A stretch of DNA of 64,000 nucleotides. It comes from Alphaproteobacteria bacterium. GTDB taxonomy: Bacteria > Pseudomonadota > Alphaproteobacteria > ATCC43930 > CGMCC-115725. Under the pieces are notes generated by a model. The model saw only the letters and a program-made list of their open reading frames with translations, did no database searches and was not told where the DNA came from. Numbering within the stretch: position 1 is the first letter of the stretch; each line of letters opens with the position of its first letter. Positions 28,536 through 38,091 of the stretch are shown here, piece by piece. The DNA is taken from NCBI GenBank assembly GCA_028871055.1, contig JAGWON010000001.1, positions 1-64,000 on the forward strand, in the 5' to 3' direction. The translations under genes and the position numbers were made by a program.

Positions 28536-30593
28536 TTAGCGCAGCGCCGCGGCAATATTGCCGCCGTCGACGGTGGTGACGTCGCCCGTCGTCTTGAGCG
28601 CGGTCGCGTGATAGAGGAACGCCGCCGCTACGTCCGCGGCGGTGACCTCGCGGCCCAGGAGATTGCCGCGCATATAATCTTGCTCGCTGACGCCACGGGC
28701 CATGGCGCGCGAGGCGATCATGTCCTTGGTGAGCAGGCCGCTGCGCACCCGATCGGCGTTCACCGCATTGGCGCGGATGCCGTCCTTGCCGTATTCGAGC
28801 GCGTATTGGCGCACGAGCAGCAGCGTCGCCGCCTTGGGCAGTCCGTAAGGCCCGAAATCGGCGCCCGGATTGATCGCCTGCTTCGAGACGTTGAACAGCA
28901 GCGCGCCGCCGAGGCCCTGCGCGCGCATCACCTTGACCGCCGCGCGCGCCACGCGCTGATGGGCGAAGAAATTGAGCTCGAAGCTCTGGCGCAGGATCTT
29001 GTCGTCGAGCTCGCCGATGGCGCCCTGCCAGGCGGCGCCGGCATTCGAGACGACGACGTCGACGCCGCCGAGCGCGGCGCAGCATTCGGCGAACGCCGCA
29101 TGCACCGCGCCGTCGTCGGTCACGTCGCATGCGAGGCCGAGCGCGCCCAGCGATTGCGCCAGCGCCTCGACCGCCTTCTTGTCCTTGTCGACGAGCGCGA
29201 GCTCGGCACCCGCGTCGCGGAAGGCGCGCGCGGTTGCCGCACCGATGGCGCCGGCGGCGCCGGTGATCAGCGCGATCTGGCCGGCCAGCGGCTTCTCCGC
29301 CGCCTTGCCGAGCTTGGCCTGCTCGAGCGACCAGTACTCCATCTCGAACAGCTTGGCCTCGGACAGCGCTTCGAAGCGCCCCAGCGCCTCGGCGTCGGTG
29401 ATCACCGCAATGGCATTTTCGGCGATATCGGCGGCGACGTTCGCCTCCTGGCGGCTGCGCCCCATGCCGAAGAGCCCGAGACCCGGCGCCAGCGCGACGC
29501 GCGGCAACGGATCGAGCGCCCGCTTGGGCGGATCGCAGCGCGCGTTGTTGCGTGCGAAATAGGCGCGGTAGCGCTCGATGAAGCCCTTGGCGGCGGCGAA
29601 GGCGTCCTTGTGGAATTGGGTGAGATTGGCGGTGTCCGGCGGCGGCAGCAGCAGCGGCACGTTCTTGGTGCGGATGGTGTGATCGGGCGTCACCACGCCG
29701 ATCTGGGAATAGCGCATGACCTCGCGGCCGTTGACATAGGCGAGGATCGCGGGCGACGAGCGGAACTCGAGGATCAGGCGGCGGTAGGCGCCCTCGATGC
29801 GCTCGTCCTTGACCGCGCAGGCGCCGCGCAAGATGGGCGCGACATCGGCGATGGTGGCGACGCGCTGCGGCAGCGTGATCGCTGGAAAGACACGCCGCGT
29901 GCCCTTCTTCTGGATGCGCGCTTCGGCGGCGCTGACCGCGGCGATCATGCGTTCATAGGCCTCGCGCGCGTCGGCGCCGAACGTAAAGATACCGTGCTTC
30001 ATCAGGATCAGGCCCTCGACGCGCGGATCGATCTCGAACACGCGCGCCGCCTTCTTGGCGAGGTCGAAGCCCGGCATGACATAAGGCACGATGCCGAAGC
30101 GGCCGTCATAGACTTCGCGGCAGATCTTCTCGCCGTCGGGCTGGTCGACGAGGCTCAGCACCGCGTTGGCGTGGGTATGGTCGACGAACCTGACCGGCAG
30201 GAAAGCGTGCAGCAGCGTTTCGACCGACGGATTGGGCGCGCCCGGATCGAGCAGGTTGGCGCGCTGGACGCGCACCATGTCGTCGTCCGCGAGGTGGTTG
30301 AGCGCGCGCAGCTTGAGGAGCGGCGCGAGGCGCACCGCCGGCAGTCCGGCGGGCTCGATATTCGCCATGTCCCAGCCGCTGCCCTTGACGCAGAGCACGT
30401 CGACCTCGTCGCCGAGCAGGTCGCGCAGCCGCAGCTTGACCGAGGTGTTACCGCCGCCATGCAGGACAAGCCGCGGATCCTGGCCGAGGAGGCGCGACGA
30501 GTAGACGCGCAGCGCCAAGTCGCGATCGACGCCCTGTTGGGCGTAACGCGCGGCCAGCGCCTCGGCCTCGTCGTCGTTCCAGCGGCTTTTCAT
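28536..30593 (-). CDS. Bifunctional class II aldolase / short-chain dehydrogenase
   Basis: A 685-aa fusion. The N-terminal half is a class II aldolase/adducin domain with zinc ligands in DHTHAN and MKHGIF and the phosphate loop HGGGNTSVK. The C-terminal half (from about residue 425) is an NAD(P) short-chain dehydrogenase: GAAGAIGAAT nucleotide loop, SNAGAAW, and the catalytic YGLPK (YxxxK). Such fusions are annotated as rhamnulose-1-phosphate aldolase/lactaldehyde dehydrogenase. No rhamnose or fucose genes are nearby, so the sugar is uncertain. ATG 30593 is chosen over 30623 because CCGGAGCC lies 6-13 nt upstream. It is divergent from the DapA-family gene with 108 bp between. Confidence 0.88.
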   Translation of the reverse strand: MKSRWNDDEAEALAARYAQQGVDRDLALRVYSSRLLGQDPRLVLHGGGNTSVKLRLRDLLGDEVDVLCVKGSGWDMANIEPAGLPAVRLAPLLKLRALNHLADDDMVRVQRANLLDPGAPNPSVETLLHAFLPVRFVDHTHANAVLSLVDQPDGEKICREVYDGRFGIVPYVMPGFDLAKKAARVFEIDPRVEGLILMKHGIFTFGADAREAYERMIAAVSAAEARIQKKGTRRVFPAITLPQRVATIADVAPILRGACAVKDERIEGAYRRLILEFRSSPAILAYVNGREVMRYSQIGVVTPDHTIRTKNVPLLLPPPDTANLTQFHKDAFAAAKGFIERYRAYFARNNARCDPPKRALDPLPRVALAPGLGLFGMGRSRQEANVAADIAENAIAVITDAEALGRFEALSEAKLFEMEYWSLEQAKLGKAAEKPLAGQIALITGAAGAIGAATARAFRDAGAELALVDKDKKAVEALAQSLGALGLACDVTDDGAVHAAFAECCAALGGVDVVVSNAGAAWQGAIGELDDKILRQSFELNFFAHQRVARAAVKVMRAQGLGGALLFNVSKQAINPGADFGPYGLPKAATLLLVRQYALEYGKDGIRANAVNADRVRSGLLTKDMIASRAMARGVSEQDYMRGNLLGREVTAADVAAAFLYHATALKTTGDVTTVDGGNIAAALR

Positions 30594-30701
30594 CGTGTGG
30601 CTCCGGCCGCCAGCATAGAACAAGCCCGGTTGGGCCGCGAGGGCCGGGATTTATTTCCGCGCGCCCGACGCGTAAAATACGCATCGAACCAGCGAGGACC
30701 C

Positions 30702-31628: not shown

Positions 31629-31832
31629 TCAGGTCGTCTGCGCGCGGCGGACCGCCGGCCAGCGGCTGAAGGCGAAGACCCAGAGCACCACCAGGTTCAC
31701 CAGCGGCACGAACCACAGGATGGTCCACCAGCCGCTGTAGCCGGCCTGCCGCAAGATCTTGACGATTGGGATCGCGATGATTGCGACGACGACGAGCACG
31801 ACGATCAAATTCAAGACCGAAATTACCACCAT
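31629..31832 (-). CDS. Small two-span membrane protein
   Basis: A 67-aa protein made of two hydrophobic helices (about 4-24 and 36-56) joined by ILRQAGYSGWW. It ends in a short basic tail, RWPAVRRAQTT. The pattern AGYSGWWxILWFVPLVNLV recurs in small bacterial membrane proteins of unknown function. The start ATG 31832 is preceded by a run of six G residues. It lies 35 nt downstream of the HtrA-like gene on the same strand, so the two may be one operon. It converges on the DapA-family gene with 3 bp between stops. Confidence 0.65.
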   Translation of the reverse strand: MVVISVLNLIVVLVVVAIIAIPIVKILRQAGYSGWWTILWFVPLVNLVVLWVFAFSRWPAVRRAQTT

Positions 31833-31867
31833 GAATGCCCCCCTGTTGGAACGCATCAGCAAATCGA

Positions 31868-32842
31868 TTATTGCAGCCGCGCCTTCTTCAAGAGCGCGGC
31901 GCGATCGGTCGAGCGCGCCGTGAGCGCGAGCGTGTGGCCGTCGCGCTGCACCGTTAGCGGCACCTCGACCCCCGCCCGGCCCAGCGACCAGATGCGACGG
32001 TAGAGCGCGGCGAGATTGTCGACCTCCTGGCCGGCGACCGACAGCAGGATGTCGCCGACGCGTAAATCGGCGCGGCGCGCCGGGCCGTCGGTGGCGAGGC
32101 CGGCGATCACCACGCGGTCCTCGATCTCGGTCGCGTAGAAGCCGAGCCACGGCCGCGGCGGCTTGTTGGGCCGGCCGAGCGTGAGCAGGTCGTCGTAGAT
32201 CGGCTTCAGAAGATCGATCGGCACGTTCATGTTGAGATGCTCCGGCCGACCGTTCTCGCGCGCCTGCTGCAAGTGGAGTGAGCCGATGGCGACGAGCCGG
32301 CCGGCGGTGTCGAGCACCGCGGTGCCGCCCCAATTGGGATGGGCCGGCGCGGTGAACAGCGCCTCGTCGAGGAGGTACTCCCAATAGCCGGCGAATTCCT
32401 GCTTGACGGCGATGCGGGCCGCGAGCGAGCGGGCGCGGCCGCCGGCGCCGCCGACCACCACGTCGTCGCCGACGCGCGTCGTCGCCGACTGGCCGAGCGG
32501 CACCGCCGGCAGGTTGAGCCGGCCCAGCGCTTGGACCAGGCCGAATCCGGTTTCCTGATCGTAGGCGACGACGTGGCCCGGCACGGCGCGGCCGTCGCCG
32601 GTGTTGAGCCAGAGGCTCTCGGCCTCGGTGACGAGATAGCCGATGGTGAGGACGATGCCGTCCTCGCGAATCACCACGCCGTTGCCGGCGCGCTCGGTGC
32701 CGAGGGTCTGGGCGGTGAAGGCATCCTCGGGCACGGTGGCGCGCAATCCCACCACCGACGACAGCGCGCGCTCGAGATCGTAGGCGTAGTCGGCCGGGTT
32801 CGGCTGCACCTGGGGCGGCATTTCCCAATCGGTCTGCGCCAT
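31868..32842 (-). CDS. HtrA-fold S1C protein with PDZ domain, predicted proteolytically inactive
   Basis: A 324-aa protein: trypsin-like domain (about 20-215) followed by a PDZ domain (about 225-310, WLGFYATEI, ADLRVGDILLSVAG). At the expected catalytic positions, His is replaced (LTIGYLVTEAE where HtrA has TNxHVV), Asp is replaced (DQETGFGLVQAL where HtrA has D..xDLAVL) and the nucleophile loop reads HPNWGGTAV instead of GNSGGP. All three triad residues therefore appear lost while the fold remains. There is no signal peptide, unlike periplasmic Deg proteases. It is probably a binding or scaffold protein, and is co-directional with a small membrane protein. Confidence 0.75.
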   Translation of the reverse strand: MAQTDWEMPPQVQPNPADYAYDLERALSSVVGLRATVPEDAFTAQTLGTERAGNGVVIREDGIVLTIGYLVTEAESLWLNTGDGRAVPGHVVAYDQETGFGLVQALGRLNLPAVPLGQSATTRVGDDVVVGGAGGRARSLAARIAVKQEFAGYWEYLLDEALFTAPAHPNWGGTAVLDTAGRLVAIGSLHLQQARENGRPEHLNMNVPIDLLKPIYDDLLTLGRPNKPPRPWLGFYATEIEDRVVIAGLATDGPARRADLRVGDILLSVAGQEVDNLAALYRRIWSLGRAGVEVPLTVQRDGHTLALTARSTDRAALLKKARLQ

Positions 32843-32906: not shown

Positions 32907-33341
32907 CTATTCCTCGCCTGGCGCGATGTGCCTGAGGCGCTTTAGCCGGCCGTGGACGCGCTTGTCCTCGACGCGCTTGCGCACCGCGGCGAGCGACGGT
33001 CCGACCGGCAGGCGCGGCTTCGGCTTGAGCGCGGCGCGGCGCAGCAGCTCGATCAGCCGCGCGCGCGCATCCATGCGATTGCGATCCTGCGAGCGAAAGC
33101 GCTGGGCGGTGATGACGACGACGCCATCGCGACGCAGCCGCTTGCCGGCGATGGTCTTGAGGCGGCGGCGCATGTGATCGTCGATGCCGCCGGCGCGATT
33201 GAGATCGTAGTGCAGCTTGACCGCCGTCGCCTGCTTCTGCACGGCCTGGCCGCCGGGGCCGGAGGCGAGGATGAAATCCTCCTCCACCGCGCCTTCGTCG
33301 ATGGCGACCGTGATCTGCCGCAGGCGCTTGGACATCTTCAT
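32907..33341 (-). CDS. arfB: Alternative ribosome-rescue factor B (peptidyl-tRNA hydrolase)
   Basis: A 144-aa RF-1-like hydrolase that frees ribosomes stalled without a stop codon. The catalytic GGQ lies in ASGPGGQAVQKQATAV (about 26-41), slightly divergent from the usual GPGGQNVNK. The basic C-terminal tail that threads the mRNA channel is present (KRVEDKRVHGRLKRLRH). The start overlaps the stop of the efflux outer-membrane gene (ATGA), so it is the last gene of the RND operon. An internal Met at codon 3 is an alternative start. Confidence 0.92.
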   Translation of the reverse strand: MKMSKRLRQITVAIDEGAVEEDFILASGPGGQAVQKQATAVKLHYDLNRAGGIDDHMRRRLKTIAGKRLRRDGVVVITAQRFRSQDRNRMDARARLIELLRRAALKPKPRLPVGPSLAAVRKRVEDKRVHGRLKRLRHIAPGEE

Positions 33342-34804
33342 CGCGTCTCCTTCGTCTCGGCGGCCGGCGGAAAGCCCGGCGGCGGCACCGGCAGCGACCG
33401 GTCCGGGAGCTCCGCCGCGCTCCAGCCGCCGCCCAGATTCTCGATCAGCAGCACGCTTGCGTTCAAGCGGCTTTGCCGGATGTTGAGCGCGGTCTGGCGG
33501 TCACCGAGGGCGGTCGTCTCGGCGGTCACCACGCTCGTGTAATCAACGGTGCCGGCACGGTACTGGTTCAAGATCAGGCGCTCGGCCTCACTCGCCGCCG
33601 CAACCGCGGCGTCCTGCACCGTCGCCTGGTCCTGTAGGACCTTGAGTGCGGCGAGATTGTCCTCGACGCCCTGGAAGGCGGTGAGCACGGTCTGGCGGTA
33701 ATTCGCCACCGCCTGGTCATGGCCGGCACGCGCCGCCGCGACCTGGGCAGTGGTGAGGCCACCATTGAAGACGTTGGCGGCGATCTGGGGTCCGGCGGAC
33801 CAAGTGAGGCTGGAGGCGTGCAGCAGCGTGTCGAGCAGGGCGCTGCTGAAGCCATAGGTGCCGGTGAGCGTCAGCGTCGGGAAATAGCCCGCGACCGCGA
33901 CGCCGATCTGCGCGTTGGCGGCAGCCATCTGCCGTTCGGCCTGCGCCACGGTGGGATTGCGCTCCAAGAGCGCCGACGGCACGCCGGCGGGTGGCACCGG
34001 CACCGACATGGCGACGGGCGCCGGCGCCAGCGCGAATTCGGCCGGCGGCTTGCCGACGAGCACGGCGATGGCGTGCTCGAGCTGGGCACGCGCCACGCCC
34101 AGCGCCACCATCTGCGAGCGCGCATTCTCGAGCGTCGCCTGGGCCTGGGCCATGTCGGATTTCGCGACATTGCCGGCGTTGTATTTGTTCCGGGTGATGC
34201 GGAGCTGCCGGCTATAGGCCGCGACGGTATCCTCAAGCAGCTGCCGCTGCGCGTCGTTGACGCGCAGTTGGAAATAATCCTGGGCCAGGGTCGCCTGGGC
34301 CGAAAGCTGGGCGGCGGCGAGCTGCGCCGCGTCGGCCTGTGCGGTGGCGGTGGCGCTTTCGACCGTGCGGCGGACCTGGCCCCAGACGTCGATCACCCAG
34401 CTGGCGTCGACCGGCAGGCTGAAATCGTTGCGGATGCGGCCGCCGCCGAACGATCCGGTGGCGGGTTTGGAGCGCGTCATCGCCGGATCGATGCCGAACG
34501 ACGGGAAATAACTGGCGCGATTCTCGGCAACGATGGCGACCGCCTGACGATAAGTCGCTTCGATAGCCTTCAGATTCTGGTTCGAGACCACAACCTGGTT
34601 TTCGAGGCCGTCGAGCACGGGATCGTCGTAGACTGACCACCACGGCTGGCCGGAGGCCGCGGCCTTCGGCTCGGCCGGCTTCCAGCCCGCGTTTTCCTTG
34701 TACGCAGCCGGTGTCTCGACCGGCGGCCGCCGGTAGTCGGGCCCGACGGTGCAGGCGGCGGCAAGCGCGGCAAGCAGCAGGACGACGGCGCGGCGCATGA
34801 TCAT
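33338..34804 (-). CDS. Outer-membrane efflux lipoprotein (NodT/OprM family)
   Basis: A 488-aa TolC-like channel subunit. The leader ends in a lipobox [14 protein letters not shown] with the lipidated Cys near residue 20. The two outer-membrane-efflux repeats are visible: [14 protein letters not shown] and [15 protein letters not shown], each followed by long helices rich in Ala, Gln and Glu. The start ATG 34804 overlaps the stop of the RND gene upstream; a second ATG at 34798 is possible. It provides the outer-membrane exit duct for the two RND pumps. Confidence 0.93.
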
Positions 34805-37800
34805 TCTCCCGGCGCCGGCGCGCCGCCCGGCAGGCGCGCAGCGCGGCGGTCCCACTGCCGCTGGCACCACAGGCGGAAGCGATCGAGATAGAGATAGATC
34901 ACCGGCGTCGTGTAGAGCGTCAGCACTTGGCTGACCATCAGGCCGCCGACGATGGCGAGGCCCAGCGGCCGGCGCAGCTCGCCGCCCTCGCCGGCGCCGA
35001 TGGCGAGCGGCACCGCGCCCAGCATTGCCGCCATGGTCGTCATCATGATCGGCCGGAAACGCATCAGGCATGCCTGGAAGATCGCGTCGCGCGACGACAG
35101 GCCGAGGCTGCGCTCCGCGTCGAGCGCGAAGTCGATCATCATGATCGCGTTCTTCTTGACAATGCCGATCAGCAGGATGACGCCGATCAGCGCGATGATG
35201 CTCAACTCGGTGCGGAACAGCATCAGCGCCAGTATGGCGCCCACGCCGGCCGACGGCAGGGTCGAAAGGATGGTGATCGGGTGGACATAGCTCTCGTAGA
35301 GTATGCCCAGCACGATATAGACCGCGGCCAGCGCGGCGACGATCAGGAAGGGCTCGGCGGCGAGCGACTGCTGGAAGACCTGGGCGGTGCCCTGGAAGCT
35401 GCCGATGATGTTGGACGGCGCGCCGAGCTCGAGCATCGTGCGGTTGACGACCGAAGCTGCTTGGCTCAAGGCTACACCCGACGCCAGGTTGAACGAGATC
35501 GTCGAGGCGACCGAAAGGCCTTGGTGATTGACCGCAAGCGGCGTGGCGCCCGGCTGGAAGCTGGCGAAGGCGGCGAGCGGCACCATCGTCTCCTTGACCG
35601 TGCTAACCGCGGTGCCGGTCGAGGCCGGGCCGTGGCCGATCGCGGTGATCGAATTGGTCGCGAGATTGCGCGCGGCGTCGGCGGCGATCGTCGCCGCCTT
35701 GGTGCTCTGGCCCTTGAGCACGACCGTGCCCGCGACGGCGTTGGTCGCCTGGGTGCCGCCGACGGCGCCGCCGACCGTACTGACACGGAGATCTTTCAGC
35801 GTGTCGGGGCTTTGCCAGAACTGCGGCGCCACCTCCATGATGACGTGATACTGGTTCAGCGGATTGAAGATGGTCGACACCTGGCGCTGGCCGAAGGCGT
35901 CGTAGAGCGTATTGTCGATCGCGCTCACGCCGAGCCCGAGGCGCGCGGCGGTTGCGCGGTCGATCGCCAGATCGGTCTCGAGCCCCTTGTCCTGCTGATC
36001 GGAATTGACGTCGGCGAGCTGCGGGACCTTCTGCAGCGCCGCGGTGATCCGGGGCACCCACTCATTGAGCGCCCGCAGGTCGTCGCTGCGCAGCGTGTAC
36101 TGGTATTGCGCGTTCGATGGCCGGCCGCCGACCCGGATGTCCTGCACCGGCTGGAGGAAAAGCGTAGCGCCGGGCACGACCGAAAGCTCGCGCCGCAGCC
36201 GCGCGATCACTGAATCGATGGCGGGCCGCCGGTTCAGCGGCTTGAGTGCGGCGAAAACGAAGCCCGAATTCGTCTGGAAACCGCCGGTGAAGCCGACGAC
36301 GTTTTCGACCGCCGCGTCCTTGCGCATGATAGAGATGAACTGAGCGAGCTTCTTCTGCATGAGCTGGAACGAGATGCTCTGATCGGCCTGGATGAAGCCG
36401 ATTAGCCGTCCGGTGTCCTGCTGCGGGAAGAAGCCCTTGGGCACGACGACGAATAGCAGCACGTTGAGGCAGAGCGTCGCGCCGAGGATGGCGAGCACCA
36501 GCGGCGAATGGCGCAGCGACCAGGTGAGCGAGCGGCGATACCGCTCCTTGAGCCAGTCGAAGCCGCGCTCGCTCCAGCGCAGGATGCGGTGCGGCGGCGG
36601 ATCGTCCGCGCGCGGCCGGCGCAGCAGGCGGGCGCACATCATCGGTGTGGTGGTGAGCGACAGCAGCAGCGAGACCATGATCGCGATCGACAGCGTCATG
36701 GCGAACTCGCGGAACAGGCGGCCGATGAGCCCGCCCATCAGCAGGATCGGCGTGAACACCGCGATGAGCGAAAGGCTCATGGACAGCACGGTGAAGCCGA
36801 CCTCGCGCGCGCCCAAGAACGCCGCCTGGAGGCGCGGCATGCCCGCCTCCAGATGGCGTGTGGTGTTCTCGAGCACGACGATTGCGTCGTCGACGACGAA
36901 GCCGGTCGCCACGGTGAGCGCCATGAGCGAGAGGTTGTCGAGGCTGTAACCCAAGAGATACATGACGCCGAAGGTGCCGATCAGCGATACCGGCACCGCG
37001 ACCGATGGGATCAGCGTGGCGCGGCCGTTGCGCAGGAACAGGTACACCACCGCGATCACCAGCAGGGTCGAGATCATCAACGTGCGCTCGACCTCCTTGA
37101 GGGACGCGCGGATCGTGGTCGAGCGGTCGACCGGAATGCCAATGTGGATCGCGGCCGGCATTTCCGCCTGGAGGACCGGCAGCTCGGCTTTGACGCCGTC
37201 GACGGTGTTGATGATGTTGCCGCCGGGCTGGCGATAGATGATCACCAGCACCGCCGGTTTGCCGTTGGCGAGGCCGGCATTGCGCAGATTCTCGACCGAA
37301 TCGACGACCTGCGCGATTTCGGACAGCGTCACCGCCGCGCCGTTGCGATAGGCGACGACAAGGTCCTTGTACGCGGCAGCAGCGCGCGCCTGGTCATTGT
37401 CGTAGATCTGATAACGCTTGCCGCCGTCCTCGATCGCACCCTTGGGCGCATGCGCGTTGGCGGCGGCAAGCGCCGCACGCACGTCTTCGAGCCCGATACC
37501 GTATTGCGACAGCGCCAGGGGATTGAGCTCGACGCGCACCGCGGGCAGCGCCGAGCCGCTGACATCGACCTCGCCGACGCCCGGCAGCTGCGACAGCTTC
37601 TGCGCCAGCACGGTGCTGGCGGCGTCGTACATCTGGCCGCGGTCGAGCGTATCCGAGGTCAGCGCCAGCACCATGATCGGCGCGTCGGCCGGATTGACCT
37701 TCCGGTAGGTCGGATTCTGGCGCAGGCTGGTCGGCAGGTCAGCGCGCGCCGCGTTGATCGCCGCCTGGACGTCGCGCGCGGCGCCGTCGATGTCGCGATC

Positions 37801-38091
37801 GAGGCCGAATTGCAGGGTGATGCGCGTGCTGCCGACCGTGCTCGTCGAGGTCATCTCGGTAACGTCGGCGATCTGCCCGAGATGCCGCTCGAGCGGTGTC
37901 GCCACGCTGGTCGCGACCACCTCGGGGCTGGCGCCGGGCAGCGTCGCGCGTACCGAGATGGTCGGGAAATCGACTTGCGGCAGCGGCGCGACGGGCAGCA
38001 GGAAGAACGCGACCGCGCCGGCAAGCGCGATGCCGAGCGTCAGCAGCGTCGTCGCCACGGGCCGGCGAATGAAGAGCGCCGAGAAGTTCAT
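34801..38091 (-). CDS. mdtC: RND multidrug efflux permease (MdtC-like)
   Basis: A 1096-aa inner-membrane RND transporter with twelve spans and two large periplasmic loops. The proton-relay residues are visible in TM4 ([13 protein letters not shown], two Asp) and TM10 ([19 protein letters not shown], Lys). The N-terminus [20 protein letters not shown] is typical of the MdtB/MdtC branch. It overlaps the partner RND gene by 4 bp. The MdtB/C type is inferred from the tandem arrangement; drugs or bile-salt-like substrates are likely but unproven. Confidence 0.92.

Follow-up and report, generated by a model that had tools for sequence, protein, structure and literature searches.

An alphaproteobacterial family of HtrA-descended pseudoproteases with a conserved, triad-less cleft and a probable role in binding

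The window (the whole 64,000-nucleotide stretch of DNA analyzed here) encodes a protein, called pseudo-HtrA below, with the predicted fold of an HtrA protease and with all three catalytic residues replaced. We judge it probable, at roughly 60%, that this protein is an HtrA-derived pseudoprotease of the cytoplasm and acts by binding, not cutting. A preliminary description of the window had proposed a PDZ scaffold or sensor derived from a protease, and a scaffold of this kind remains the best reading. The analysis extends that proposal in four respects, as the protein belongs to a widespread family, its protease domain is most conserved at the dead site, its C-terminal tail is fixed, and the family includes a branch with predicted export signals.

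The reading frame is real and under purifying selection. Six pairs drawn from the window gene and the three closest relatives listed, which are 85 to 88% identical, gave dN/dS values of 0.094 to 0.195, and three Bradyrhizobium pairs gave 0.081 to 0.114. These values, together with the confirmation of at least 574 of 590 candidate stretches as relatives, rule out a pseudogene or a chance reading frame. The arrangement that characterizes HtrA/Deg proteins (MEROPS S1C), a trypsin-like barrel with a C-terminal PDZ domain, is present both by Pfam and in the predicted fold (Table 1). A sequence search of the PDB returned DegS, DegP, and AlgW among its matches, the best at 4.1e-16, and scores against the NCBIfam HtrA models lay far under their cut-offs (83.7 bits versus 422.95 for the DegS equivalog, TIGR02038). 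The window genome (3.07 Mb, 99% complete) carries one copy of pseudo-HtrA and three HtrAs with intact triads; pseudo-HtrA is therefore probably not their replacement.

Table 1. Pseudo-HtrA, its parts, and neighboring genes, in positions of the window
Feature	Residues	Position	Strand	Remarks
Class II aldolase domain fused to short-chain dehydrogenase		28536-30623	minus	
Two-helix membrane protein, downstream		31629-31856	minus	Weak DUF805/DUF5684 resemblance, below cut-offs
Pseudo-HtrA gene	324 aa	31868..32842	minus	ATG 32842 to stop 31868
C-terminal tail	315-324	31871..31900	minus	10 residues past conserved Arg314
PDZ domain	228-310	31913..32161	minus	Pfam PDZ_2 3.1e-11; carboxylate loop RPWLGFY retained
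Trypsin-like barrel	53-186	32285..32686	minus	Pfam Trypsin_2 5.7e-16, whole model covered
Former Ser/oxyanion loop L1 and preceding strand	148-174	32321..32401	minus	
G172 codon	172	32327-32329	minus	
W171 codon	171	32330-32332	minus	
Former Asp loop	95-106	32525..32560	minus	Gly99 at Asp position, codon 32546-32548
Former His loop	64-73	32624..32653	minus	Tyr69 at His position, codon 32636-32638
ArfB ribosome-rescue gene, directly upstream		32907-33341	minus	131.1 bits vs cut-off 100
Genes for an outer-membrane efflux protein and an AcrB-type transporter, farther upstream than ArfB		33338-38091	minus	

The HtrA fold of pseudo-HtrA is a high-confidence prediction. An AlphaFold2 model built with 58 family sequences reached a mean pLDDT of 91.5 and a pTM of 0.89; block means were 81 for residues 151-160, 93 for 161-170, and 96 for 171-180, the last two blocks containing the former Ser loop, and only 59 for 321-324. 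This model superseded one from a 26-row alignment (pLDDT 74.7, former Ser loop below 50), and HtrA matches were obtained with both alike. From Foldseek's top list, 991 chains were aligned, and every one had a Z of at least 8. The best VIA match from that list was Deg1 (3qo6; Z 25.5, rmsd 5.8, 282 aligned), tied within 1 Z with Mycobacterium tuberculosis HtrA (7vyz; Z 25.1, rmsd 5.8, 276 aligned) and DegS (6ew9; Z 24.7, rmsd 6.2, 285 aligned). Single-domain chains (3tjo and 6z0e) superposed at rmsd 2.3 to 2.6, and the high whole-chain rmsd probably arises because the PDZ domain is placed differently. Structure prediction and superposition, which the preliminary description had put forward as a check, thus returned the fold it had named, with barrel and PDZ domain retained; the triad comparison was made by sequence alignment, not on model coordinates.

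For that comparison, 181 family rows were aligned with 11 triad-bearing HtrAs; 180 of the family rows were readable in the triad columns (row L117, mis-extracted, has a gap there), and row L187, cut at its N terminus, has a gap in the His column. At the His position, family rows carry Tyr (179) or Phe (1), versus His in all 10 active rows readable there, and at the Asp position all 180 carry Gly, versus Asp in all 11 active rows. Relative to the active HtrAs, the alignment of the L1 region contains a four-residue insertion and a shortened loop before it, and which residue takes the Ser position hinges on one gap: as computed, the Ser aligns to G172 (Gly 156, Ser 13, Ala 9, Gln 1, Asn 1), and with N-x-G-G matched it aligns to W171 (Trp 170, Phe 7, His 2, Tyr 1). 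Where residue 172 is Ser, in 13 rows, His and Asp are absent all the same. The His-Asp-Ser triad of the S1C family was accordingly found in none of the 180 readable rows, and from these residues the family appears to have lost catalysis. The motifs that had first drawn attention to the protein, LTIGYLV, GFGLVQAL, and HPNWGGT, are all present as quoted, and the replacements they contain recur across homologues. No column of His, Cys, or Lys conserved at 95% or above was found across the 181 family rows, and the lack of a conserved His rules out a displaced classical triad elsewhere in the fold.

Family rows are not independent, many of them being from Bradyrhizobium, so a set of 77 A-like rows, thinned at 80% identity, was used to assess conservation; the labels A-like and B-like record the best BLAST query, not tree position. 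Within the protease domain, conservation is highest in the former active-site loops, with information contents of 3.84 (His), 3.65 (Asp), and 3.69 bits (Ser) and a mean of 3.71, compared to 2.74 for the rest of the domain and 2.66 for the whole PDZ domain. None of 5000 random placements of three same-size blocks within the protease domain reached 3.71 bits. Among all readable family rows, W154, E155, Y156, and G173 are each present in 180 of 180. The PDZ carboxylate loop reaches 3.74 bits in the reduced set, and over all readable rows P231 is present in 179 of 180, W232 in 176 of 179, and G234 in all 179. Since the loops are conserved above the rest of their domain, the dead site seems to have been repurposed and not to be decaying, and it has probably been given a new binding job; folding constraints of a core filled with Trp and Tyr could account for part of the conservation.

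The end of the protein is likewise constrained. Arg314 is conserved in all 178 readable rows, and a tail of exactly 10 residues follows it in 144 of the 148 A-like rows that are complete and in 22 of 29 B-like rows, the latter set wrongly including L117 (row L200 is truncated where its stretch ends). Of the 148 A-like tails, 138 have Pro at -4 and 126 have Leu at -2, and the last residue is His in 124 and Gln in 16; the window tail ends A-R-L-Q and so lacks the Pro at -4. Among the 29 B-like tails, with L117 counted in, the last residue is Tyr in 12 and Phe in 4, and 15 of these 16 aromatic residues follow Ser or Thr. Among the 75 A-like rows that are complete and non-redundant, the final residue has an information content of 3.16 bits, above the 2.66 averaged over the PDZ domain. 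Adjoining a PDZ domain, such a fixed and free C terminus suggests that the tail may be read as a ligand, by the protein's own assembly or by a partner.

From the confirmed relatives, 80 of 60 to 88% identity were kept, many of them from Bradyrhizobium and other Hyphomicrobiales, and 25 of 41 genomes (the window's and 40 relatives) match pseudo-HtrA at 1e-20. A sample of 387 alphaproteobacterial genomes yielded 106 with matches at 1e-25, of which 105 carry the family, all at 4e-60 or better; the remaining match, at 1.4e-26 in genome G065, is L185, which belongs to the active HtrAs and was excluded. With no match at 1e-25 in the other 281 genomes and one matching only through an active HtrA, the family does not serve a core function. 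Two separate matches, one of them partial, were seen in 38 of the 105 genomes. Across 397 genomes of the phylum, 61 matched at 1e-20 and fell on either side of a gap, 41 at 1.2e-75 or better (39 within the class and 2 outside) and 20 at 1.1e-27 or weaker; in the 7 weak matches examined, the triad was present as far as covered. Two genomes of about 1.2 Mb (G112 and G342) retain a family copy, and the similar-sized G049 gave no match. The copies in the former two (L133 and L134) are of the exported form, and each of these genomes has only three HtrA-like candidates.

A tree was computed from 94 rows (56 A-like, 27 B-like, and the 11 active HtrAs). The 83 homologues form one clade apart from the active HtrAs at 100/100, which suggests that the triad was probably lost once and does not favor repeated loss, in a tree whose active rows number only 11, whose stem is long, and whose bootstrap values were not fully stable. 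Nested in this clade, at 99/97, is a branch that joins 27 B-like rows with 5 A-like ones, 32 in total; L183 and L184, family members fetched from outside the class, fall within it.

The N terminus of pseudo-HtrA is conserved and hydrophilic and has no signal peptide by sequence, in agreement with the preliminary description. Starts were scored as signal-like when a 12-residue hydrophobicity window reached a mean of at least 2.0, a simple test and not a dedicated signal-peptide predictor; by it, 18 of 30 B-like rows passed versus 1 of 151 A-like rows. The one A-like row (L079) passed through an upstream Met before the conserved start, some B-like rows stayed under the threshold, and three had no Met from which to start. 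The periplasmic export signal or anchor of HtrA/Deg proteins is thus apparently missing from the window form and represented by such starts in the nested branch, which is predicted to be largely exported. The cytoplasmic form was probably ancestral in the family and export regained, with many forks near the family's base still open. Near the start and ahead of the barrel, at least five members (L127, L141, L146, L151, and L153) carry an N-G-H-K/R motif.

Reading frames were called and clustered at 148 loci chosen by homology, some with short flanks. No neighbor common to the whole family was found at these loci, and there is no family-wide neighborhood pointing to a pathway. The commonest neighbor cluster, hydrolase-like by eye, occurs at 36 of 148 loci, and the six loci listed for it are from Bradyrhizobium. 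ArfB lies upstream at five loci, those of the window, the three closest relatives listed (L006 to L008), and L009. The two-helix membrane protein had been offered as a candidate PDZ ligand; its gene does follow pseudo-HtrA in the window, but it was found at none of the other 147 loci, some with short flanks, and so does not stand as a natural partner. The likely start of this small gene is ATG 31832, preceded by an AGGGGGG ribosome site. A gene for a uracil-DNA-glycosylase superfamily protein was also identified near pseudo-HtrA, beside those for RND efflux, ArfB, and the aldolase/dehydrogenase fusion.

As a binding protein, pseudo-HtrA would assemble like other HtrAs, probably into a trimer. 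Its PDZ domain may capture the C terminus of a protein, and a second peptide or a tail segment would lie in the remodelled cleft (Tyr69, Gly99, Trp154-Glu155-Tyr156, and Trp171), so that pseudo-HtrA could act in the cytoplasm as an adaptor or holdase; the branch that later gained signal peptides would do an equivalent job in the periplasm. A bolder version, which we advance only tentatively and with low confidence, is that one ancient triad loss founded the alphaproteobacterial family, in which cleft and PDZ domain make a two-point grip on C-terminal tails, its own included, and that one branch moved to the periplasm, often changing its tail to S/T-Y/F. The gripped tail of the protein itself would then typically be F-L-K-x-P-x-L-H in the cytoplasm, with the A-R-L-Q end in the window, and the periplasmic tails would mimic the ends of outer-membrane proteins. 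Such a grip, if true, would be a switch with a built-in ligand made from a stress-sensing protease.

Other roles were weighed against binding through a specific cleft. HtrA proteins have chaperone activity besides proteolysis, according to the available part of PMC6892219, and the retained fold and PDZ domain would suit a general holdase, in which a proteolytically inactive HtrA would keep unfolded chains in solution with no specific ligand. However, a few cleft residues are conserved almost without exception and the tail has a fixed length, which suggests something specific. The window protein also has a single PDZ domain, whereas the cage-forming DegP type has two, and we consider a general holdase unlikely. 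Alternatively, a pseudoprotease could co-assemble with an active HtrA, or act as its ligand, and tune it as MamO does for MamE. MamE-dependent processing requires the HtrA pseudoprotease MamO in a manner independent of MamO's own triad (PMC4794232, in the part available), and the Y/F ends of 16 of the 29 complete B-like tails resemble the YQF and YYF peptides named in the titles of DegS co-crystal structures. The window tail, however, ends LQ and is not aromatic. Bacterial HtrAs act mostly in the periplasm and the window protein has no signal peptide, so the two would not meet, and such a regulator appears improbable. A further alternative is an enzyme whose old cleft holds a new active site of non-serine type, which might draw on the nearly invariant polar residues Arg51, Thr66, Tyr69, Glu73, Asp95, Glu155, Tyr156, and Ser188. 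But no His, Cys, or Lys reaches 95%, Ser188 is the only Ser column that does (178 of 180), and Thr66 and Asp95 are conserved in active HtrAs too, at positions we take to be non-catalytic there; a new enzyme is very hard to credit.

Read as a binding protein, pseudo-HtrA, with a dead site that exceeds the remainder of its domain in conservation, offers a clear and testable case of active-site repurposing, and the cytoplasmic and exported branches allow the same fold to be compared across two compartments. Public plasmid records of 26 relatives name five as 'S1C family serine protease' and one as 'signal protein PDZ', with 20 unannotated there; five of the six annotated relatives are thus counted as proteases, although by their residues they should be incapable of the serine mechanism. 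The earlier impression that the protein is little described is consistent with a literature search, with subscription papers and supplements outside its scope, which found no paper dedicated to the family; MamO and a 2008 survey were the only close matters, some listings being partial.

Compared with DegS, DegP, DegQ, and Deg1, pseudo-HtrA shares the predicted trypsin-type barrel followed by PDZ (Z of about 23 to 25), but the window form lacks the triad, the signal peptide, and the membrane anchor, and has a remodelled L1 region and a short fixed tail past the PDZ domain. The 2008 prokaryotic survey, in the part available, designated 42 of 966 homologues in 91 genomes, Bradyrhizobium and Rhodopseudomonas included, as putatively catalytically inactive serine protease homologues (SPHs), a class to which the pseudo-HtrA family may belong; no function for a family of this kind was found in that part (PMC2605481). 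MamO keeps His116 and Asp149 and has Thr225, whereas all three positions are replaced in the pseudo-HtrA family; it also differs from the window form in the latter's lack of a signal peptide, and it binds metal through His148 and His263, whereas the family has no His column at 95% or above (a comparison by column conservation). MamO is nonetheless the nearest described kind, an HtrA-type fold that has lost proteolysis and has been kept for another role (PMC4794232, in the part available); in the pseudo-HtrA family, the residues point to a like loss of catalysis.
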